The notes under the pieces: model-generated
What the model saw: only the letters and a program-made list of their open reading frames with translations
Told to the model about the DNA's origin: nothing
Database searches by the model: none
Shown here: piece after piece, positions 14,762-38,407 of the stretch
Position numbering within the stretch: position 1 is the first letter of the stretch
How the letters are laid out: each line of letters opens with the position of its first letter
Assembly (NCBI GenBank): GCA_913063265.1
Contig: CAJXZG010000029.1
Coordinates: 1-51,064, forward strand
DNA from: an uncultured Prolixibacteraceae bacterium
Lineage (GTDB): Bacteria > Bacteroidota > Bacteroidia > Bacteroidales > Prolixibacteraceae
Direction: 5' to 3'
Length of the DNA: 51,064 nt
Made by a program: the position numbers and the translations under genes

Positions 14762-16552
14762 CTATTTCACCAAAAATTTACTTGTAAAACTACCTTTAAT
14801 CCCCTTAACCGATAATAAATACATGCCTGAACGTAATCCCCGGATATCAATCTGAGTTGCTTTATTTGGAGATACTTCAACATCAAAAGTTCTGATATTA
14901 CGTCCGGCAATATCCCATATTTCTATTTTAGAGAGACCGCTAATGTTTCTGGCATTTACGTATAATATATCTTTAGCCGGAACAGGGTAGATTTTAAAAG
15001 ATTTTTGATCAGAAAATTCAGTAGTTTGTGTGGTTGCCGATTTGGTCAAAGCATTTAACATCTCACGATCAAGCTGGTAGCCCTGATAGTTTTCATATTC
15101 ACAGTCCTGACGGCCACTATTTAGAATTCCAAAACCACCTGAAAGGTTCCATAATGCCCAGCCCAGGTTGTTTTCTCTGAAAAAAGCCGATAAATCAGTA
15201 AGAAAATCAACAGCTACTTTATGCGGAGTCTGATTATAAACTCCAAATTCCTGAACCATAATCGGGATATTATACAAATTAGCAGTTTCAACAGTTTCCT
15301 TATAGTTTTCGAATGGAGAAAGTTCGTTACCGGCTGATGTTTTTAGTTTTCCGTTTTCATCCAATTTATAGGAAGTTTGTTTTTTACCCCAGGAATTATC
15401 AGATAAATTCAAAGTTAATTCATTTTCCCCTTTTTTAATTGTAATTGAATTGATGGTCATCCAGTCTCCGGCAGTATTCTCAAAAGAAATACGAGTAGCG
15501 TTCGCGGATAAAATTACTGAATAATCTTTATTTGAAATATTCTGATACCCCCATTCGGTTTCCACAATTTTTGTAAAATCATCTCCTAAATCAGGGCCGC
15601 AAACAAACCTTTTTGAAAGGATGGTTTTTGTTCCGGCTTTAATATTTAAGGTCGATTCAATTGAAACCTGATTTACGTTTACAATAATTTCGGTTCCTGT
15701 TTCGAAATTACCTTCAAAAACCAATGGGCTTTTGTATTCGTTTTTCCATGTGCCATAAAGGTAGTTGGAAATCGCAAGCATTGGCCATTGTGGCAGAGAC
15801 CAGTCAGAGGACCCATTTACCCAGCTTGCTTTGTAATGTGTAAGTTGAAAAGGATCATAACTATGGATTGCCTGAGCAATGTTGGGTTTATCTTTCAAAG
15901 ACATAAGCAGACCTCTGCCAAATCCCAATCCATCTATAAAAATTACCCTATTGGGAGTAATGTCATGAATTGCTTTAACAGCCATATTCATCACTCCAAC
16001 ATAAATTTCTTCTTCCACATCGTGAGGTTCATTCACAAGGTTAAAACTCAATCTGTCCGATGAAATTTCCTTGTATCTTTCTGCAAACATTTGCCAATGG
16101 TTTACAAAAGTGTTTTGTGCAGTAGTGTCTGTCCAAAGGTCAAGTTGATGATGAACCGGTAAATTGGCTGTTTCGTTAACACAATATCCGGGAGCACGAT
16201 GCAGGTTAATACAAATATGAACATTGTATTTGTTTCCCCACTCTATTACCTGGTCGATTTTTGCCAGTTGCGATTCAACAAAATAGTTCCAGTTGTTCGT
16301 TAGTGTGTAAGTTCTGTAGTCTAACGGGAGTCGAACAAAATTGAATCCCAGTTCTTCAATAATTATAAATTCTTTTTCAGAAAATCCTTTGTTGCTGTAC
16401 GAAACATCAAATTTACCCAAAAGGTTAAAGCCTTTCTGTTGAGAGCAAAATTCTTTTAAATCTGAAACAGGTTCGCCAGGTTGTGCGAACGAATTTAGGT
16501 TTATACCTAAAATTCCAAAAAGAACCAGCAGTATTATTTTACGTGAATTCAT
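14762..16552 (-). CDS. secreted GH5 family enzyme with internal beta-rich insertion and T9SS sorting domain
   Basis: 596 residues from ATG 16552 (ATG 16561 would add three residues). Signal peptide ends at NSFAQ. The catalytic GH5 barrel has NLVNEPHD (acid/base Glu about 175) and IMVQEFGVYN (nucleophile Glu about 435). Between them, roughly residues 275-405 form an extra beta-rich domain (from EYKSPLVFEGNF to GKKQTSYKLDENGKL), so the two catalytic glutamates are about 260 residues apart, far more than usual. The last 80 residues (KIYPVPAKDILYVNAR to GMYLLSVKG, ending FTSKFLVK) are a type A sorting domain of the type IX secretion system. It likely is an endoglucanase or mannanase on the cell surface; the substrate is not determined. 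Confidence 0.85.
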   Translation of the reverse strand: MNSRKIILLVLFGILGINLNSFAQPGEPVSDLKEFCSQQKGFNLLGKFDVSYSNKGFSEKEFIIIEELGFNFVRLPLDYRTYTLTNNWNYFVESQLAKIDQVIEWGNKYNVHICINLHRAPGYCVNETANLPVHHQLDLWTDTTAQNTFVNHWQMFAERYKEISSDRLSFNLVNEPHDVEEEIYVGVMNMAVKAIHDITPNRVIFIDGLGFGRGLLMSLKDKPNIAQAIHSYDPFQLTHYKASWVNGSSDWSLPQWPMLAISNYLYGTWKNEYKSPLVFEGNFETGTEIIVNVNQVSIESTLNIKAGTKTILSKRFVCGPDLGDDFTKIVETEWGYQNISNKDYSVILSANATRISFENTAGDWMTINSITIKKGENELTLNLSDNSWGKKQTSYKLDENGKLKTSAGNELSPFENYKETVETANLYNIPIMVQEFGVYNQTPHKVAVDFLTDLSAFFRENNLGWALWNLSGGFGILNSGRQDCEYENYQGYQLDREMLNALTKSATTQTTEFSDQKSFKIYPVPAKDILYVNARNISGLSKIEIWDIAGRNIRTFDVEVSPNKATQIDIRGLRSGMYLLSVKGIKGSFTSKFLVK

Positions 16553-16677
16553 TGCGTCCATAATATTGTTGTTTTTTGGTTACTAAATACACAAATATTT
16601 CAATAAGAAATATTTTTTAGGGTTTGTAAAGAAAGGTATAAAGTTAAATACTTTGTTTTAAAAATGCAATTAATTGA

Positions 16678-30179: not shown

Positions 30180-30875
30180 ATGAGCGATTACAAAAAATTG
30201 AACATCAAAGAATGGGCAGTAGAAGACCGGCCTCGTGAGAAAATGTTAAGAAATGGCTCCCGGTCACTTTCAGATGCTGAATTAATGGCAATTCTTATTG
30301 GTTCAGGTAATACAGAAGAAACCGCAGTTGAATTATCAAGGCGAATTTTGTCATCAGCAGATAACAATTTGAATGAACTTGGAAGAAAAGATGTTGAGTC
30401 TCTGATACAGTTTAAGGGAATTGGAGAAGCAAAAGCAATCACAATTGTTGCTGCATTGGAATTGGGTAAACGGCGAAAAGAAGCCGATGTTTTTGCAAAA
30501 AAGAAAATAACCGGAAGTAAAGATGCGGCAGATTATTTTTTACCGCTTTTGGGAGATTTAAATCATGAGGAATTTTGGATATTAATGCTCGACCGCGGAA
30601 ACAAAATCAAGGATAATTTCAGAATCAGTTCGGGCGGAATTTCAGGAACGGTAATAGATGTCCGGTTAATTTTAAAAGCTGCACTCGAAAAACAGGCGAG
30701 CTCGATAATTCTTTGTCATAACCATCCTTCGGGCACCATGCAGGCTTCGGATGCCGATTTAAAAATAACCCGAAAAATTGCAGATGCTGCCAAAATTATG
30801 GATATAACGGTCCTTGATCACATAATTATCGGAAATAACAAATATCTTAGCCTTGCCGATGAAGGAATATTGTAA
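30180..30875 (+). CDS. radC: RadC family JAB-domain protein
   Basis: 231 residues from the ATG at 30180 (MSDYKKLNIKEWAVEDRPREK); an in-frame upstream start at 30108 adds 24 residues with no family character. A helix-hairpin-helix element (QFKGIGEAKAITIVAALELGKR) is followed by the JAB/MPN metalloprotease-like motif ILCHNHPSGTMQASDAD, with the His-x-His and Ser-x-x-Asp-type zinc site. RadC proteins are widespread but their role is still unclear. It is an isolated gene upstream of the surface-glycan operon, 18 bp before the next start, so it may be read with it. Confidence 0.93.
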   Translation: MSDYKKLNIKEWAVEDRPREKMLRNGSRSLSDAELMAILIGSGNTEETAVELSRRILSSADNNLNELGRKDVESLIQFKGIGEAKAITIVAALELGKRRKEADVFAKKKITGSKDAADYFLPLLGDLNHEEFWILMLDRGNKIKDNFRISSGGISGTVIDVRLILKAALEKQASSIILCHNHPSGTMQASDADLKITRKIADAAKIMDITVLDHIIIGNNKYLSLADEGIL

Positions 30876-30893: not shown

Positions 30894-32234
30894 ATGATTC
30901 TGATCTATTCCGATAAAATAACACCAAGGTTAAAATATATAATGGAACTGATATTTAACGGAATACTCATGACAGAAGTTAAATTTTCCCGAAGTCAGGA
31001 TGATTTTCTAAGTTCTGATTTACCCAAAATAAATTACTCCAATCAAAAATTTTCAGACGAAATTTATTTCAAACCTCATCCAATTCTTTTTGAACCCGGA
31101 ATCAGGAAGCAGAATATTGACGTTGTGCCCTTTAAAAATATGAGTTGCTTTTTTCAAACTTCGCCCGATTCGACATTTCCTTTTGATGTTTTTGCTGCTT
31201 CGTTTTTTTTGGTAAGTCGATACGAAGAATACAGTACTGTAGATTTTGACCAATACGGAAGATTTTCGGCAAGCCAAAGTATTTTGCACAAACTGGAAAT
31301 AATTAAAAAACCTGTAGTTGATATTTGGGCACAGTGGTTGGCCGATGAAATCAAAGAAAAATACAAGCAACTAAAGTTTTTTAAAAACAAATTCAGGTAT
31401 ATTTCAACCATCGATATTGATAATGCCTGGGCTTATTTAAACAAAGGTTTTTGGAGAACCTATGCTGCACAGTTAAAATCTGTTTTAACAGGAAATTTTG
31501 ATGAGTTTAAAACCAGACTGGAAGTATTAAATGGCAAAAAGAAAGATCCTTATCATACCTATGAATACCTGAATTCGGTTTTTTCCGGTAACGAAGAGAA
31601 GATAAAATTCTTTTTCCTTATGGGCAATTATGCAAAATTTGATAAAAATATATCGTATAAAAATCACGGTTTGCAAGAATTGATTAAGGGAATTGCAAAA
31701 AATTATGACGTTGGAATTCATCCTTCTTTTGCAGGATTTATAAAAGGGGATCACAATGAAGTAGTTCAGGAAAAGGATCGTCTGGCAACTATTTCAGGAA
31801 GGAAAATAAAAAAAAGCCGGCAACATTATCTCAACCTCAGGTTTCCGAAAACCTACCAAAATCTTTTAAAAGCCGGAATTACGGAAGATTTTACCTTGGG
31901 ATTTTCAGATCAGATTGGATTTAGGGCTGGCACCTGTACTCCATTTTATTTCTACGATTTGGAAAACGAAGTACAAACTAATTTGAAGATTGTTCCGTTT
32001 CAGGTAATGGATGGCACTTTGTTACATTATCAAAAATTTTCACCCGTAAGGGCGATCGATGAGATCGAGCGTTTAATGGAGGAAGTAAAAAATGTGGGTG
32101 GAACTTTTGTAAGTATCTGGCACAACGAAACGGTGAACGATTTGGGAGAGTGGAAAGGCTATCAGGAAGTTTTTGAAAAAACGAACCAACTAGGATTTAA
32201 ATGGGCAAATGAACAGGCAGGTAGTTTATATTAA
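30894..32234 (+). CDS. polysaccharide deacetylase family protein with DUF7033-like N-terminal domain
   Basis: 446 residues. The N-terminal 170 residues (MILIYSDKITPRLKYIMELIF onward) match a domain found before NodB-like deacetylases in Bacteroidota exopolysaccharide loci. The NodB part starts at about 168 with STIDIDNAW (metal-site Asp region), continues to VGIHPSFAG with a His (about 275) and ends GGTFVSIWHNETVND. It probably removes acetyl groups from surface polysaccharide, or is a relative without activity. No signal peptide is visible. It overlaps the next gene by 26 bp and opens the seven-gene operon. Confidence 0.75.
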   Translation: MILIYSDKITPRLKYIMELIFNGILMTEVKFSRSQDDFLSSDLPKINYSNQKFSDEIYFKPHPILFEPGIRKQNIDVVPFKNMSCFFQTSPDSTFPFDVFAASFFLVSRYEEYSTVDFDQYGRFSASQSILHKLEIIKKPVVDIWAQWLADEIKEKYKQLKFFKNKFRYISTIDIDNAWAYLNKGFWRTYAAQLKSVLTGNFDEFKTRLEVLNGKKKDPYHTYEYLNSVFSGNEEKIKFFFLMGNYAKFDKNISYKNHGLQELIKGIAKNYDVGIHPSFAGFIKGDHNEVVQEKDRLATISGRKIKKSRQHYLNLRFPKTYQNLLKAGITEDFTLGFSDQIGFRAGTCTPFYFYDLENEVQTNLKIVPFQVMDGTLLHYQKFSPVRAIDEIERLMEEVKNVGGTFVSIWHNETVNDLGEWKGYQEVFEKTNQLGFKWANEQAGSLY

Positions 32235-33123
32235 ACACCAGGATATTGACGACAAAAAATGGTCGGTTTGTATTGATAAAGCAGACAATAGCAGAATCTA
32301 TGCAAATATCTGGCATCTTGATCGTACAGCCGAAGTATGGGATGCGCTGGTTTTGGGCGATTACGATTATGTAATGCCACTTCCGGTAAGATCAAAATAT
32401 GGACTTAAATACATTTATCAACCCACTTTTTGTCAGCAACTGGGTATCTTTCCAAGTCCGAATAAAAAGATTGCAGAATTGTTTTACCAGGCACTTTATA
32501 AACAACTCCGGTATGTTGAAATACAGGTAAATTCGTCAAATCCAACCCTGCTAAATGACAATCGGTTTAATTTTATTCCCAGAAAAAATTTGCTTCTCGA
32601 TTTGCGATATAACTATAAATCACTTGCCAGAACATATTCTACAAATACAAAACGCAATATTTCAAAAGCAAATAAATACAATTTGCAATATGTTCAGGGA
32701 ATTCGTTTGGAGGATTATCTGGAATTTAAAGAAACAAATCTGACCGGAAACACTTCGGCAAAAAATATTGAAAAGCTTAAAAGTATTATTGCTTACGGCC
32801 AGTATAAAGGGATAGGCGAAATATTTGGAGTTTACAGCCAGGAAAACACTTTATGTGCTGCTGTATATTTTTGCCGATGGAAAAACCGTGTTATATATCT
32901 GAATGCGGTTTCCAACCAGTTAGGAAAAGATTTAAGGGCCATGCATTTTTTGCTCGACAACTTTATTCAGAATAATGCTGAACACAATCTGTTACTTGAT
33001 TTTGAAGGTTCCATGATTCCGGGAGTAGCAAGATTTTATGAAGGATTTGGTGCAGTTTCAGAAAGCTATTTTCAACTTAAATTTAATCGTTTACCTTTGC
33101 CTCTCAGATGGATTAAAAGTTAA
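32209..33123 (+). CDS. FemAB/GNAT-like transferase
   Basis: 304 residues. The architecture is that of FemAB/peptidoglycan-bridge-like acyltransferases: VMPLPVRSKYGLKYIYQPTFCQQLG early, YSTNTKRNISKANKYNLQ in the middle and LLLDFEGSMIPGVARFYEGFGA near the end, the last being the conserved GNAT-type substrate loop. FemAB proteins move an aminoacyl or acyl group to an amino group. It overlaps the preceding deacetylase gene by 26 bp and lies 2 bp before the next. A role in transferring an activated acyl group to a glycan is inferred from the neighbouring ligase and carrier protein. Confidence 0.75.
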   Translation: MNRQVVYIKHQDIDDKKWSVCIDKADNSRIYANIWHLDRTAEVWDALVLGDYDYVMPLPVRSKYGLKYIYQPTFCQQLGIFPSPNKKIAELFYQALYKQLRYVEIQVNSSNPTLLNDNRFNFIPRKNLLLDLRYNYKSLARTYSTNTKRNISKANKYNLQYVQGIRLEDYLEFKETNLTGNTSAKNIEKLKSIIAYGQYKGIGEIFGVYSQENTLCAAVYFCRWKNRVIYLNAVSNQLGKDLRAMHFLLDNFIQNNAEHNLLLDFEGSMIPGVARFYEGFGAVSESYFQLKFNRLPLPLRWIKS

Positions 33124-33125
33124 TA

Positions 33126-34097
33126 ATGAAGAATATTCCACGTTTATTTTCTAACCTGATTGGACAGTTTTATTCGTCCCCAAAATTATTCTCATTATCA
33201 ACTCCTCCTTTTTTGCCATTTTATCATGTAGTAAGTGACGATAAATTAGATCATGTGCGCAATTATCCTTTCCGAAATAGAAAGGAATTTGAGAAAGAAC
33301 TTGACTTTATTCTGAAACATTTTGAACCCGTTTCTTTGGATTTTATTTTGAAAAATCCAGATACAAAAAAGAAAATTTTTCATCTCAGTTTTGATGACGG
33401 GTTAAAAGAGTGCCATGAAATTATTGCACCTATTCTTCTGAGAAAAGGGATACCTGCCTCTTTTTTCATAAATACCAATTTTGCAGATAACAAAGCCTTA
33501 TATTATAAGTATAAAGCCAGTCTTCTGAAAGGGAAATTGATAAGTGAGACAGCTGATATTTCTAAATTCTTATTTAAGCATAAAGTTCAGATAAGCAGCC
33601 TTTTACAATTGGATTATTCAAAAGAACAACTTCTTGATTCTATTGCAGAAGAAATAGGTGTTGATTTTTCAGATTATCTAAAAAAAAACAAACCGTACCT
33701 TTCAAAAACACAAATTCTTGAGCTTCAAAATCAGGGTTTTAGTATTGGGGCACACAGCTTAAATCATCCTGAGTTTTGGTTGATTTCGGAAGATGAGCAA
33801 TATCGTCAAATCAAAGAAAGTGTAGAGTGGGTGCAAAAACATATTCAACCAAAAATTAGTGCATTTGCTTTTCCGTATACAGACTGGAGAGCATCAGCGA
33901 GGATTTTAAAAAGAATTAAATCTGAAAATATTTGTGATGTGACTTTTGGCACGGCAGGTGTAAAATACGATGAGTTTGATTTTCATTTTCAACGATATCC
34001 AATGGAAAAAAATGGGAATTTTGTTGGTCAACTTAAATCAGAATTTGTGTATTTTCAGCTCCGGAAATGGATTGGAAAAGCTACCGTAAAACATTGA
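33126..34097 (+). CDS. NodB-type polysaccharide deacetylase
   Basis: 323 residues. Motif 1 is FHLSFDDGLKECHEII (catalytic Asp-Asp) at about 88 and motif 2 is SIGAHSLNHPEFW (zinc His) at about 210; FAFPYTDWRASA follows. This is a typical carbohydrate esterase 4 fold acting on N-acetylated sugars. No signal peptide is visible, so it may act in the cytoplasm or on the inner-membrane side. The gene ends inside the first codons of the possible upstream start of the ligase (34067). It is the second deacetylase of the operon. Confidence 0.85.
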   Translation: MKNIPRLFSNLIGQFYSSPKLFSLSTPPFLPFYHVVSDDKLDHVRNYPFRNRKEFEKELDFILKHFEPVSLDFILKNPDTKKKIFHLSFDDGLKECHEIIAPILLRKGIPASFFINTNFADNKALYYKYKASLLKGKLISETADISKFLFKHKVQISSLLQLDYSKEQLLDSIAEEIGVDFSDYLKKNKPYLSKTQILELQNQGFSIGAHSLNHPEFWLISEDEQYRQIKESVEWVQKHIQPKISAFAFPYTDWRASARILKRIKSENICDVTFGTAGVKYDEFDFHFQRYPMEKNGNFVGQLKSEFVYFQLRKWIGKATVKH

Positions 34098-34126
34098 ACC
34101 AAAGAATTTTAAAACAGGCTGGAAAC

Positions 34127-35641
34127 ATGACATTTATTCAGGAACTTTATAATACATTCATAAAATACAAAAACAAAAGAGCTTTTTGCATTAACGATAA
34201 AGACTATTCCTACGGCGATTTTTTGGAATATATTAACGGAGCAAGAGAACTTATCGAAAAAAATGTTTCGGGGAAAAATAATCCAATCGGGATTATGTAT
34301 TTTGAATGTATTGAAACTTATGCAACGATTTTTGCAGCATGGTTTAGCGGGAATTATTTTGTGCCTTTAAATCCAAAACATCCTTCGGAAAGAAATAAAA
34401 CAATTATCAATAATGTAGGTATTCAACTTTTGTTTTCAGCACAAGAAGATGTGGATGAATTTGTTCGGGAAGTGGAAGGCCTTAATTTTCAAATAAATTC
34501 GGATTCTAAAACGAAAAACATCAAAGAACCGGTTATATCTTCCGGAGTTCAGTGGATGTATATTCTTACAACATCGGGTAGCACGGGCACGCCAAAACAT
34601 GTCCCGATTTGCCAGGAAAACCTGGGAGCCTATTGTGCCGGTTTTTTGGATCGATTCCCTGAAATGAATGACAAAGTTTGTATGCTGCAAACTTATGATT
34701 TAACTGTCGATGCATCGGTTACTGCATATTTGGTTCCATTAAGTATTGGAGCTTGTGTTTACACTTTACCCGATAGCCCGTTTAAGTTTTTAAGTATTGC
34801 CAAAATGCTGGCCGATAAAAATGTTACCTGGGTAAAATTAACACCTTCAGTTCTTTCGTTTTTGGCTCCACACAAAACTCAACTCGATTTTAAACACCTC
34901 GGGCAGGTTATTCTGGGAGGTGAGGCATTTCCTTTGTCATTGTTAAAAGAGTGGCAACCTGTATTTCCAAATGCAAGAATTGCGAATCATTATGGGCCAA
35001 CTGAAACAACGGTGGGTGTAACTACATATAAAATTGATGATCTGCAAAATATCCGTTCAATGAATGGTGTGGTTTCTATTGGACAGGAGTTTAAAACGGT
35101 TAAAAGTGTTATTATAAAAGAAGATGGCACCGAAGCCGGTTTTGGAGAAAATGGTGAATTATGCATCTCAGGGAAACAGGTGATGCAGGGGTACTTAAAC
35201 GGGAACAATAATTCGTTTATTAATTTTGAGAAAAACAATGAAAGCCGCAGTTATTACCGCACCGGTGATATTGTTCAGAAAGATACGGAGGGTTTTATTT
35301 ATTATATGGGCAGAACCGATGACCAGGTAAAAATTGAAGGGCACAGAATTAATCTGATAGAAATTGAAAATAAAGTAAGGGAGTTACTGCCCGGACATAA
35401 AGTGGCAATGTTGGCCTACGAAAAATTCCCCGGTTTTAAAAGACTATATTTGTTTGTTGAAGGGAGCAATATTGATAAAATGCAACTAAAATCAAGGTTA
35501 ACTCTACATATACCACCCAAAATGATACCCGAAGAAATATTTGTTGTTTCGCAACTTCCATTGTCATCCGGAGGAAAAAAGGATAGAATTTCGCTGGCAA
35601 ATGATTACCTTGCCAACCCATCAAAAAAAAGCCTGAAATAG
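34127..35641 (+). CDS. AMP-forming acyl/amino-acid ligase (adenylation domain)
   Basis: 504 residues from the ATG at 34127 (an upstream ATG at 34067 would overlap the previous gene by 31 bp). All adenylation motifs are present: LTTSGSTGTPKHVP, NHYGPTETTVGV, YRTGDIV, GRTDDQVKIEGHRINLIEIE and SSGGKKDR with the catalytic Lys. The shape is that of a free-standing NRPS-type A domain, as in D-alanine-carrier ligase DltA. It probably activates an amino or carboxylic acid and loads it onto the carrier protein encoded at 36392. Its TAG stop overlaps the next GTG start by one base. The substrate is not predictable by eye. Confidence 0.9.
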   Translation: MTFIQELYNTFIKYKNKRAFCINDKDYSYGDFLEYINGARELIEKNVSGKNNPIGIMYFECIETYATIFAAWFSGNYFVPLNPKHPSERNKTIINNVGIQLLFSAQEDVDEFVREVEGLNFQINSDSKTKNIKEPVISSGVQWMYILTTSGSTGTPKHVPICQENLGAYCAGFLDRFPEMNDKVCMLQTYDLTVDASVTAYLVPLSIGACVYTLPDSPFKFLSIAKMLADKNVTWVKLTPSVLSFLAPHKTQLDFKHLGQVILGGEAFPLSLLKEWQPVFPNARIANHYGPTETTVGVTTYKIDDLQNIRSMNGVVSIGQEFKTVKSVIIKEDGTEAGFGENGELCISGKQVMQGYLNGNNNSFINFEKNNESRSYYRTGDIVQKDTEGFIYYMGRTDDQVKIEGHRINLIEIENKVRELLPGHKVAMLAYEKFPGFKRLYLFVEGSNIDKMQLKSRLTLHIPPKMIPEEIFVVSQLPLSSGGKKDRISLANDYLANPSKKSLK

Positions 35642-36390
35642 TGGATAACATCGAAAAAAATCTTTATGATTTTTACAGAGTTTTAGCTGAAGTAAAAAAT
35701 ATCTCGCTCGTCAAAAAGGAAGATTTTGAGCTTATTCAGGCTAAAAATAATCTCTGGCCGCAATTGATATTTAATTTGAATCAGCAAAAGAATCAAAATG
35801 AAATAATTCCTGAAATTTCGAGGTATTTGGCCGACTACAAATTATCTCCTTCTATAGTGGCCCCGGATGAGTATATTTCAAAAAATCACTCCGAATTATT
35901 AAAAGCCAGTTCTTTGATCCCGGTTAAGGTTTTAATGGGAATGAATACATCAAAAGGAAGTAAGGAAAATATTAAAATGCCGGCAGATTGTGAAATTTGT
36001 GAACTTAAAAATAAAACACAATTGAGCGATTTTTCCATGCTGATTCAAAGAGAATTTTTTTCCTCAAAAAAGGATTTTGGTGAAGAAATTCTACTTGAAT
36101 TAAAGGATAGTGAAGAAGTTACAATGACAGGTCTTTACAAAGATAGCACGCTGGTTTCTTCAATGTTGGTTTTTATTAAAGACAACATTGCCGGACTGTA
36201 TTTTATTGGTACAAAAAAGGAGAACCAGAAAAAAGGATACGCAAGTCTGTTGATTCGATCTGGTTTAAATCAATTATTCAAAACCGGAATAAAAGAAGTA
36301 GTTTTGCATGCCAATCACAATTCTTTTGCTTTGTACCAAAAAATTGGATTTGAAGTTCAAAACAAGTTTATTGTTTATAAAAAAGTATAG
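35641..36390 (+). CDS. GNAT N-acetyltransferase
   Basis: 249 residues starting at GTG 35641, which overlaps the ligase stop by one base. The first 115 residues are of no recognised family; the C-terminal part is a GNAT fold with FIGTKKENQKKGYASLLIRSGL (acetyl-CoA site) and NHNSFALYQKIGFEVQNKF. It moves an acyl group from CoA, or possibly from the carrier protein, to an amine. The very close spacing ties it to the ligase and ACP genes. Confidence 0.8.
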   Translation: MDNIEKNLYDFYRVLAEVKNISLVKKEDFELIQAKNNLWPQLIFNLNQQKNQNEIIPEISRYLADYKLSPSIVAPDEYISKNHSELLKASSLIPVKVLMGMNTSKGSKENIKMPADCEICELKNKTQLSDFSMLIQREFFSSKKDFGEEILLELKDSEEVTMTGLYKDSTLVSSMLVFIKDNIAGLYFIGTKKENQKKGYASLLIRSGLNQLFKTGIKEVVLHANHNSFALYQKIGFEVQNKFIVYKKV

Positions 36391-36391
36391 G

Positions 36392-36631
36392 ATGAGCAGC
36401 GAAGAAATTCTGGAAAAACTAAAAAAGGTATATGCTGAAATATTTAAAGAAGAAATGGCCTTAACACATGAAACTTCTCCCAATGATATTGGTTCCTGGG
36501 ATTCGTTAAACCATGTACTTTTAATTAAAAGAATTGAAGAAGAATTTCAGATAGAAATTGATTTATTTGAGGTAATCGAATTAAAAAATACCGGGGATAT
36601 TGTAAATGCCATTCAGAAAAGATTGGTCTGA
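36392..36631 (+). CDS. acyl carrier protein
   Basis: 79 residues from ATG 36392 (a longer frame from 36308 overlaps the GNAT gene and was rejected). It starts MSSEEILEKLKKVYAEIF and has the phosphopantetheine serine Ser38 in NDIGSWDSLNHVLLI, a standard ACP/PCP motif. It starts directly after the GNAT stop. Its probable role is to carry the acyl or aminoacyl group activated by the upstream AMP ligase. It is distinct from a fatty-acid AcpP by its neighbours. Confidence 0.9.
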   Translation: MSSEEILEKLKKVYAEIFKEEMALTHETSPNDIGSWDSLNHVLLIKRIEEEFQIEIDLFEVIELKNTGDIVNAIQKRLV

Positions 36632-36649
36632 AAAGATAGAAAAATAAAA

Positions 36650-37735
36650 GTGCAAATCAGGGAAATAAAAGTTCGCGAACTGCCGGATTTTATAAAAAGT
36701 GAAGACTATAAAAATCTGGATATAAAACCGATAACGGAGTTGCGGGCCGTTTCGCAATATTTTAATCCCGATGCTGATCCTGAAGATCTGGCCCTGATTT
36801 ACGCCTCGAACGACAACGAATTATTAGGATTTGCCGGACTGTTACCCAAAAAAGCAAACAGCGAAAATATTCAAATTTATTCCAATTCGTGCTGGTGGGC
36901 CAACCAACAGAAAGGCAAGGGTATTGCAGTGCCGTTGTTTTTGCAACTGCTGAAAAGGGCGGACACAAAACTGTTTTTATCTGAATCAACACCCCGGGCA
37001 AAATCGATTATTGAAAAAACAGGATTATTTGGAGAAATAAAGTCTAATAAAGGAATTCGCGGATTTATCCGTTTTTATTTGGCCGATATTATTCAAAATA
37101 AGTATCCAGGTAAAAAGTGGATGCAAATTCCATTTATGGTTCTGGATTTTTTACTGAATTTTGTCCTCGTTCCGTTTAAAAACTATCATCTTTCCAGATT
37201 TAAGAAGAACAGTTTTTCCATCGAAAAAGTAAACGAAGTTGATAAGGAAATTGAAACATTTATCAACAAATATTCTTTGTCGGAATTGGTACAAAAAAAT
37301 GCTGCTCATTTTTCCTGGTTTAAGAAATATGGCTGGCTAAAATTCAAAGACAAAAACTCAACAATTCGATACCCGTTTACCCATGAAGCAAAGAGCTTTG
37401 AGTTGAATTATTATGCATTCAGGGAAAAAGGTGAATTAAAAGCTTTTGTGGCAATTTCGAACCGCGACAACCTTGCAAAAGTTCCTTATGTTTATTTTGA
37501 CAAAAAAAATATTCAAAAGGTGGTAAACACGATTATGGCTTTACTATTGCAAAATAAATATGATTCGTTGGCTATATTTCATAAGGAAATTGTTGAATTT
37601 ATGGGAAAACACAAAATGCCTTTTTATTTTCGCAAAACAGAAACAAAATACTCGGGGACAACAAAAAAGATTGAGCATATTTTTAAACAAAAACCGATAT
37701 TGCAAGACGGAGACGGAGATGTTATTTTTATTTAA
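36650..37735 (+). CDS. GNAT-like protein with central hydrophobic segment
   Basis: 361 residues, GTG start at 36650, 19 bp after the ACP. The first half has a GNAT-like fold (AGLLPKKANSEN, NQQKGKGIAVPLFLQLLKRA, LFLSESTPRAKSIIEKTG). Residues about 157-185 are hydrophobic (MQIPFMVLDFLLNFVLVPF), so the protein is probably membrane-associated. The second half is of unknown type but may be a second acyltransferase-like fold. It closes the operon, 10 bp before upp. It is the strongest candidate for the final transfer step, but this is inference. Confidence 0.65.
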   Translation: MQIREIKVRELPDFIKSEDYKNLDIKPITELRAVSQYFNPDADPEDLALIYASNDNELLGFAGLLPKKANSENIQIYSNSCWWANQQKGKGIAVPLFLQLLKRADTKLFLSESTPRAKSIIEKTGLFGEIKSNKGIRGFIRFYLADIIQNKYPGKKWMQIPFMVLDFLLNFVLVPFKNYHLSRFKKNSFSIEKVNEVDKEIETFINKYSLSELVQKNAAHFSWFKKYGWLKFKDKNSTIRYPFTHEAKSFELNYYAFREKGELKAFVAISNRDNLAKVPYVYFDKKNIQKVVNTIMALLLQNKYDSLAIFHKEIVEFMGKHKMPFYFRKTETKYSGTTKKIEHIFKQKPILQDGDGDVIFI

Positions 37736-37744
37736 TCAGAAATT

Positions 37745-38407
37745 ATGGAAACAAAAGTTTTAGGTGGAAATCATTCAATTCTGGACCAGTACCTGGCAGA
37801 GATTAGAGATATTTCAATTCAAAACGATCCACTTCGTTTTAGAGATAACTTAAACCGGATAGGCGAAATTTTTGCCTACGAAATCAGCAAAGAATTACCT
37901 TTCGAAGTTAACGATGTGCAAACACCACTGGGAGTTGCCACTGTGCCTAAATTGGTTCAACAACCTGTGCTGGCAACCATTTTACGCGCCGGATTGGCAA
38001 TGCACAACGGACTGTTAAGAATTTATGATCGCGCTGAAAATTGTTTTATTTCTGCATTCAGAAAATATACCGATGATGGCGCTTTCGAGATTGAATTTGA
38101 ATATATGGCTTCACCTTCGTTGGATAATAAAATTGTAATACTTTCCGATCCGATGTTGGCCTCCGGTAAATCCATGGAAATTGGTTATCGCGCGCTTTTT
38201 AGCAAAGGCAAACCAAATCATGTGCATATGGTTTCTATTATTGCCAGCAAACAGGGAGTTGATTATGTTACTGATAATATTAAGGATAAAAACGTAACAC
38301 TTTGGCTGGGTGCGGTGGACGATGAAATGACTTCAAAATCATATATCGTTCCCGGTTTGGGCGATGCCGGTGATTTGGCCTATGGCGAAAAAATTGATTC
38401 GAAATAA
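37745..38407 (+). CDS. upp: uracil phosphoribosyltransferase
   Basis: 220 residues. It makes UMP from uracil and PRPP in pyrimidine salvage. PRPP loop IVILSDPMLASGKSMEIGYRAL, the ATILRAGLAMHNGLL block and the C-terminal uracil-binding YIVPGLGDAGDLAYG are present. It follows the operon's last gene by 10 bp and could be read through from it, although its function is unrelated. It ends near palindromic repeat copy 3. Confidence 0.93.
   Translation: METKVLGGNHSILDQYLAEIRDISIQNDPLRFRDNLNRIGEIFAYEISKELPFEVNDVQTPLGVATVPKLVQQPVLATILRAGLAMHNGLLRIYDRAENCFISAFRKYTDDGAFEIEFEYMASPSLDNKIVILSDPMLASGKSMEIGYRALFSKGKPNHVHMVSIIASKQGVDYVTDNIKDKNVTLWLGAVDDEMTSKSYIVPGLGDAGDLAYGEKIDSK

Follow-up and report, generated by a model that had tools for sequence, protein, structure and literature searches.

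A candidate Vim-type sugar-modification operon with an optional carrier-protein donor cassette in an uncultured Prolixibacteraceae bacterium

The 51,064-nt stretch of DNA analysed here (positions 1 to 51,064 of contig CAJXZG010000029.1, GenBank assembly GCA_913063265.1; hereafter the window) comes from an uncultured Prolixibacteraceae bacterium and carries, on its forward strand between positions 30894 and 37735, seven packed open reading frames (ORFs) for deacetylases, GNAT-type transferases, an AMP-forming ligase and a carrier protein. A preliminary description had treated this operon as one kit; our comparisons divide it instead into two deacetylase-transferase pairs, the VimE-VimA-related DAC1-FEM and DAC2-GNAT2, and a LIG-GNAT1-ACP segment which sequence comparison marks as an optional donor cassette. 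The genes, and the one flanking them at the 3' end, are:

30894..32234, forward strand: DAC1, a DUF7033 plus CE4-like deacetylase related to VimE, 446 aa (matches to PF23019 and NF053580)
32209..33123, forward strand: FEM, a predicted FemA/FemX-fold transferase probably related to VimA, 304 aa (AlphaFold2 model, Foldseek, hhalign)
33126..34097, forward strand: DAC2, a polysaccharide deacetylase, 323 aa (PF01522, DDG and HSLNHP motifs)
34127..35641, forward strand: LIG, a stand-alone AMP-forming amino-acid-type ligase with an inferred start (the longest ORF, of 524 aa, begins at 34067)
35641..36390, forward strand: GNAT1, a GNAT-family protein with a GTG start, 249 aa (PF00583)
36392..36631, forward strand: ACP, a carrier protein with Ser38 as attachment site, 79 aa (PF00550)
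36650..37735, forward strand: GNAT2, a predicted tandem-GNAT transferase of no named family with a GTG start, 361 aa (AlphaFold2 model, Foldseek)
37745..38407, forward strand: upp, uracil phosphoribosyltransferase, 9 bp 3' of GNAT2, a flanking gene outside the proposed mechanism

Coordinates and spacing were checked on the ORF list of the window and agree with the tight packing described before, with overlaps of 26 bp between DAC1 and FEM and 1 bp between LIG and GNAT1, and small gaps elsewhere. The first ATG of LIG (34067) would give a 31-bp overlap with DAC2, and the start at 34127 leaves a 29-bp gap; the latter is likelier because relatives start near the residue aligned with Met21.

DAC1 matched DUF7033 (PF23019) with 104.6 bits at a cut-off of 27, and its residues D174, D176, H276, H311 and H410 were invariant across five aligned sequences. 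Its score against the VimE model NF053580 was 157.9 bits (E 3e-46), yet below the cut-off of 440, which by sequence points to DAC1 as a distant relative of VimE. An AlphaFold2 model of FEM (14 sequences, pLDDT 92.1) predicts the double-GNAT FemXAB (FemA/FemX) fold, with FemA (TMq 0.66), Sbb17 (0.68)/Sba18 and FemX (6snr, 0.70) as the best solved Foldseek matches and MprF-type domains lower down. Structures of Sbb17 and Sba18 have reportedly also been determined with the amino-sugar antibiotic precursor streptothrisamine, and the top PDB matches were mostly FemA/FemX-type and aminoacyl-tRNA-dependent enzymes. FEM had no match over cut-off in Pfam (none to PF13480, and none to PF02388 at E≤1) and none in NCBIfam at E≤1; PF13480 was without a match at E≤0.001 anywhere in the window's genome, and a sequence search of FEM and GNAT2 against solved structures returned nothing significant.

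Two sets of genomes were searched, 198 from the window's order and 247 from the phylum; other genomes and loci are referred to below by G and L numbers. Genes over the VimE cut-off were present in 6 of the 198 order genomes, and the FEM profile matched the neighbour of such a true VimE in L051 (hhalign 99.6%, E 1.6e-24) and in L072 (98.5%). FEM and these two neighbours align over most of their length and have a DFEGSM...FGA stretch in common; all three lack an NCBIfam match, and none is named VimA by a model. DAC1 and FEM lie no more than 2.5 kb apart in 76 of the 125 order genomes with both places listed. For DUF7033, no mention was found in open-licence papers. Veith 2020 (PMC7468200) reports that exchange of VimA switches Ser to Gly on the linking sugar of the type IX secretion system (T9SS), proposes VimE as the enzyme that frees the amine, and already discusses a link between VimA and PEP-CTERM systems. 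The likeness of our operon to this Wbp/Vim pathway of P. gingivalis and T. forsythia lies in the pairing of a CE4-type deacetylase with a FemAB/GNAT-like amino-acid transferase, and in a genome with PorU and many cargo proteins bearing the T9SS C-terminal domain; it differs in that DAC1 falls under the VimE cut-off and in the addition of a second deacetylase, a tandem GNAT, a DltA-like ligase and a carrier.

DAC2 matched PF01522 (Polysacc_deac_1) with 67 bits and carries DDG at residues 90-92 and HSLNHP at 210-215, which we take to be its two CE4 deacetylase motifs; D90, D91, G92, H210 and H214 were invariant across 11 aligned sequences. The AlphaFold2 model of GNAT2 (13 sequences, pLDDT 90.6) is a tandem GNAT with Foldseek matches to N-myristoyltransferases, lysyl-phosphatidylglycerol (LPG) synthase domains, FemX and tandem acetyltransferases, at TM-scores of about 0.5 or lower, and no Pfam family scored over cut-off. 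A grouping of FEM and GNAT2 as a single family was rejected (profile comparison probability 0.2%). As GNAT2 is rare in the phylum sample (4/247 genomes, one of them weak), the order sample was used, in which 31 of 198 genomes carry it.

The neighbourhoods of GNAT2 were compared at 39 loci, with all ORFs considered and the window itself excluded; the duplicate contigs L084 (= L019), L088 (= L045), L089 (= L042) and L090 (= L014) were dropped from counts and trees, and the GNAT2-positive order genomes G373 and G402 have no region in the set. Because L074-L091 were retrieved via LIG, the share of ligase loci is inflated. DAC2 was nearby in 30 of the 39 loci, FEM in 22 and DAC1 in 12. A recognised donor gene was found in 18 (LIG in 15, the ketoacyl synthase KASIII in two and FkbH in one), and a carrier in 19, that is, in all 18 donor loci and in L021, which comes from a genome (G053) that carries DAC2-LIG-GNAT1 on a separate contig (L049). 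The 15 ligase loci held ACP without exception, GNAT1 in 13, and DAC2 and FEM in 12 each. FkbH proteins make glyceryl-ACP, and the FkbH protein of L038 scored well over its model cut-off (296.5 versus 146.65). This varied set of carrier-charging enzymes beside DAC2-GNAT2 (DltA-like ligase, FabH-like KASIII, FkbH) is as expected if GNAT2 draws on a carrier. In L041 (6870-11771), the neighbours of DAC2-GNAT2 are a FabH-like synthase, a B12-binding radical SAM protein and an ACP, which amounts to another route to an acyl donor; in L038 (3338-7288) they are a carrier and the FkbH protein, which suggests that the group is glyceryl.

Within the cassette, LIG scored 291.6 bits against TIGR01733, just under the cut-off of 317.4, and 207-214 bits against DltA models, placing it by sequence among amino-acid-type adenylating enzymes nearest to the adenylation (A) domains of nonribosomal peptide synthetases (NRPS) and to DltA. 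In an alignment with the fuscachelin FscH A domain, D215 of LIG occupies the position of the A4 Asp. In NRPS A domains this Asp binds the alpha-amino group, and its retention therefore favours an alpha-amino acid as substrate; a by-eye reading of the pocket code at the GrsA positions fits no amino acid whose code is known to us, and we claim no substrate. GNAT1 matched PF00583 (Acetyltransf_1) with 33.7 bits (cut-off 20.7); among the 39 GNAT2 loci it was present only alongside LIG, and in L019 the two are fused as one 759-aa ORF. ACP was barely over the cut-off of PF00550 (PP-binding; 20.9 versus 20.8 bits) and reached up to 33.8 bits with acyl carrier protein models. Its attachment Ser38 was kept in six of six aligned carriers, so that the loss in relatives which the preliminary description had considered was not seen. 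The close LIG type (>800 bits) was restricted to 4 of the 198 order genomes. The LIG-GNAT-ACP triple seems, from its gene neighbourhoods, to be a portable donor module, because a related ligase triple or pair is also found with MBOAT genes. In L079, MBOAT and SGNH genes come after such a triple, and in L082 LIG-GNAT stands with MBOAT and SGNH, with no ACP called; these Dlt-like clusters belong to Sphingobacteriales and Flavipsychrobacter metagenome-assembled genomes (MAGs). More distant ligases next to MBOAT genes were seen in L067, L068, L070, L083 and L086, one of them an Ignavibacteria MAG, with carrier and SGNH not called in all. In the six genomes of L054-L059 the order was LIG-(ACP)-GNAT-AAC(3)-like-DAC1-FEM, with the carrier called only in L054 and L056 and the AAC(3)-like gene assigned by PF02522 in L054 and by homology in the other five.

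The gene order FEM-DAC2-LIG-(GNAT1)-ACP-GNAT2 recurs in Bacteroidales and in a Flavobacteriaceae MAG, and this recurrence in divergent genomes excludes chance gene packing. A natural exchange is provided by G420, of the same genus as the window. In the window, radC ends at 30875, directly 5' of the operon, with rpsT, lptB and tatC further upstream (names read from the sequence). At the same site in G420 lie lptB, an rpsT-sized ORF, radC, DAC1, FEM, DAC2, GNAT2 and upp, with no LIG, GNAT1 or ACP between DAC2 and upp. While identities between the two genomes were 57% for DAC1, 63% for FEM, 58% for DAC2, 79% for radC and 83% for upp, a conserved neighbour of DAC1-FEM, GNAT2 was only 28% identical. 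The reverse was seen in L074, a Prolixibacteraceae MAG whose upp-flanked site includes LIG and ACP: FEM was 41%, DAC2 40% and GNAT2 45% identical to the window's proteins.

GNAT2 type largely sorts by the ligase cassette. In a 38-row GNAT2 tree, 14 of 15 ligase-linked rows fell on one side of a branch with support 95/97, and the ligase label changed three times compared to 12.0 times after shuffling (0/500 shuffles as low). Of the 16 ligase-linked rows in a 40-row tree that includes L048 and L025, 15 lay together on one side of a branch (support 94/90), with four label changes versus 12.4 shuffled (again 0/500 as low). L015 and L046, which end at contig ends, were counted as without ligase in the smaller tree and left unlabelled in the larger one. 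The ligase side of the 40-row tree also holds two KASIII-linked rows, L021, and L026 and L040, for which no donor was seen; the other side consists of 17 rows without ligase (including the FkbH-linked L038), the two cut rows and L019. Together, the exchange in G420 and the tree provide, at the level of sequence, the best evidence that GNAT2 uses the LIG/ACP product, L019 excepted.

PorU is encoded in the window's genome (1266.7 bits, G000:C16) along with 127 T9SS tails matching TIGR04183. Across the order sample, the VimE model detected DAC1 in 148 of 198 genomes, comprising 147 of 182 with PorU and 1 of 16 without (Fisher p 2e-9). FEM was found in 156 genomes, 145 of them at E≤1e-20; these strong matches were confined to genomes with PorU (145/182 versus 0/16, p 1e-10), and two genomes without PorU had a weak FEM. 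The sole PorU-negative genome with DAC1/VimE, G087, is a true VimE genome. At its locus (L050) VimE scored 692 bits yet no PorU was matched, possibly owing to a missing stretch. Both samples consist of related genomes, and these p values overstate independence; the lists for PorU, DAC1/VimE, FEM and DUF7033 were intersected by hand, and per genome the PorU searches scored no more than three candidates in the order sample and two in the phylum sample.

Gene order, folds, family relations, catalytic motifs, the optional cassette, the sorting of GNAT2 and the co-distribution of DAC1/FEM with PorU in the order are the observations from which we infer the sugar, the acyl group, the donors, the amine on which each enzyme acts and the T9SS target. 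DAC1 would deacetylate an amino sugar at one amine, to which FEM would then attach an amino acid, with aminoacyl-tRNA as the probable donor; since its fold is aminoacyl-tRNA-transferase-like, FEM need not use the carrier. DAC2 would expose a second amine. LIG is predicted to activate an amino acid as adenylate and to load it on the 4'-phosphopantetheine of ACP, GNAT1 may modify or help to load the carrier-bound aminoacyl group, perhaps by N-acylation, and GNAT2 would transfer this group from the carrier onto the DAC2-exposed amine. The outcome would be a cell-surface glycan with a di-substituted amino sugar, most likely the lipopolysaccharide sugar that PorU joins to T9SS cargo. We consider carrier-dependent N-acylation of a sugar probable. 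That the whole is a Vim-type sugar-modification operon extended by a swappable carrier-thioester N-acylation module stands at about even chances, and the T9SS linking sugar as its target is a tentative assignment that could well be wrong. The two-step scheme of the preliminary description, in which a sugar is N-deacetylated and then receives a carrier-bound group, fits the three donor types beside DAC2-GNAT2 and the GNAT2 type that tracks the cassette; it does not extend of necessity to FEM.

Several observations weigh against this reading. Besides the sub-threshold VimE score of DAC1, a FEM-like neighbour was present at only two of the six true VimE loci, and no sugar-nucleotide, glycosyltransferase or flippase gene lies within the seven-gene operon. 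No donor was seen at 21 of the 39 GNAT2 loci and neither donor nor carrier at 20, some of them cut at contig ends, and the 21 mean that some GNAT2s may work without a carrier. In the 40-row tree the ligase-bearing L019 groups with non-ligase GNAT2s, the ligase-bearing L048 with KASIII-linked ones and the FkbH-linked L038 with non-ligase ones; an 'any carrier' label required five changes (unshuffled), no fewer than the four of the ligase label. Capping of the amino group by GNAT1, if it occurs, would prevent that group from serving as the PorU nucleophile. GNAT2 itself was not significantly associated with PorU in the order sample (31/182 versus 0/16, p 0.06), and PorU calls err both ways, 171 of 182 (order) and 164 of 179 (phylum) matches being over cut-off. 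In the phylum sample, DUF7033 occurred in 63 of 179 genomes with PorU and in 9 of 68 without (p 0.0005), a weak link, and in the window's class 7 of 13 PorU-negative genomes carry it; by these counts and those of the order, the link of DAC1/FEM to the T9SS is strong in the window's order and weak outside it.

The presence of DUF7033 in PorU-negative genomes of the phylum also speaks for the explanation that comes next, in which the operon adds acylamido groups to O-antigen or another surface polysaccharide, unrelated to the T9SS, and co-occurrence with PorU reflects phylogenetic inheritance. The variety of donors (LIG, KASIII, FkbH) resembles O-antigen diversity, and ACP-dependent N-acylation of an O-antigen sugar has been proposed for Flavobacterium psychrophilum (PMC6519341). 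Nevertheless, DAC1 and FEM are Vim-related and nearly absent from PorU-negative genomes of the order, and the annotated flanks, which cover part of the surroundings, are mostly housekeeping genes (mutS2, gyrB, miaA, upp) rather than a polysaccharide cluster. We regard an O-antigen role as a serious but rather unlikely alternative.

We think it improbable that LIG-GNAT1-ACP-GNAT2 makes an amino-acid lipid such as serylglycine (flavolipin-type), with the deacetylases as passengers. This explanation is retained because the cassette directly follows glsA/glsB-like glycine-lipid genes in two Flavobacteriales loci without DAC2, L080 (8235-13484; PF19576 and PF13444 seen) and L087 (1619-6648; by homology), which also counts against the sugar-modification reading, and N-myristoyltransferases are among the best fold matches of GNAT2. 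It is opposed by DAC2 near GNAT2 in 12 of the 15 ligase loci and in the window, by GNAT2 occurring with DAC2 but without any ligase, and by the lack of a glsA/glsB homologue near the other 13 ligase loci. Nor do homologues always sit in an NRPS or lipid cluster, a setting that the preliminary description had named as a challenge to its interpretation: no NRPS context was found in the mapped GNAT2 loci, and only two of 15 ligase loci adjoin glycine-lipid genes. Slightly less probable still is a single Vim-type transfer in which carrier and ligase feed FEM from aminoacyl-ACP and GNAT2 acts elsewhere. FEM does occur in 12 of the 15 ligase loci and adjoins the cassette in L045 and L080; on the other hand, it is 63% identical in the cassette-less G420, whereas GNAT2 changes, it is present in 156 of 198 order genomes versus four with the close LIG type, and its fold matches are largely tRNA-dependent enzymes.

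Returning to the proposed Vim-type operon with a carrier-fed module, its parts resemble several known systems. The preliminary description had likened the genes to the exosortase A/PEP-CTERM kit and had noted the absence of an exosortase. Indeed, PF09721 was without a match in the whole assembly of the window's genome (94% complete), and PorU is more plausibly the sortase partner in these bacteria than an exosortase. The list of activities (deacetylase, FemAB-like, AMP ligase, ACP) is similar, but LIG scored 138.6 bits against the exosortase-linked ligase model TIGR03098 (cut-off 592.35), FEM did not match the PEP-CTERM FemAB family TIGR03019 (NCBIfam, E≤1), and DAC2 matched no NCBIfam model named for the exosortase/PEP-CTERM system. 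Membership in that system was rejected on the exosortase, ligase and FemAB models, and because LIG lies far below its cut-off and neither FEM nor DAC2 matches a model of the system, the comparison holds as an analogy only. To the Dlt system the operon is linked by the DltA-like LIG and by the LIG-GNAT-(ACP) relatives paired with MBOAT and SGNH in L079 and L082; it differs in that transfer in the window's operon is predicted to be N-linked and cytoplasmic. Scores remained below the Dlt models (DltA TIGR01734, 207.5 versus 559.85; DltC, 16.5 versus 68), and phmmer found no homologues of the L079 MBOAT and SGNH genes among the window ORFs. LIG is also no NRPS, being a stand-alone 524-aa ORF with AMP-binding as the only domain over cut-off and no condensation domain. 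For the F. psychrophilum O-antigen, PMC6519341 proposes ACP-dependent N-acylation of UDP-Qui2NAc4N, which shares with our operon a dedicated carrier that supplies an acyl group to an amino sugar; its acyltransferase is PglD-like and its acyl chain KAS-made, and the word deacetylase is absent from that paper. Each of three elements, the Vim pair, Dlt-like ligases and carrier-fed acylation of sugars, is known already; for their union with a cassette-swapping tandem-GNAT transferase, our searches of the open-licence literature found no description.

To our knowledge, synthesis of the linking sugar in T9SS bacteria outside the studied mouth species has not been worked out, and the operon supplies concrete enzymes for this question. 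It also joins DUF7033 to the circle of Vim deacetylases and defines GNAT2 as an uncharacterised tandem-GNAT family whose type largely tracks a swappable donor cassette. If our reading of the operon is right, genome sequences would reveal the anchoring chemistry used by many Bacteroidota. A bolder and distinctly speculative extension, which we hold to be unlikely, is that Bacteroidota build T9SS linking sugars with interchangeable carrier donor cassettes, the plugged-in donor (ligase, FkbH glyceryl or KASIII) setting the group on the anchoring sugar. If true, protein-anchoring sugars would be made by a modular, NRPS-like route, which would also be a candidate for how alanine reaches the linker of Prevotella intermedia. 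The authors of the P. intermedia paper state that the route placing alanine on the linker sugar, a deoxyhexose, is unknown.

Around the operon and its relatives, a few further features were recorded. The identity of upp is backed by Pfam on its homologue in L061; upp also lies 3' of DAC1-FEM in L060-L064, and a MacB-like permease after upp was confirmed in L061 only. Beyond mutS2 near the cassette of G007, the reverse strand of L014 (15179-16174) encodes a GFO/IDH/MocA oxidoreductase, which may or may not be a sugar-nucleotide enzyme; WbpB belongs to this broad family. In the window itself, a 599-aa ORF on the reverse strand (14762-16561) carries a T9SS C-terminal tail (TIGR04183, 42.7 bits) and is likely a cargo protein.

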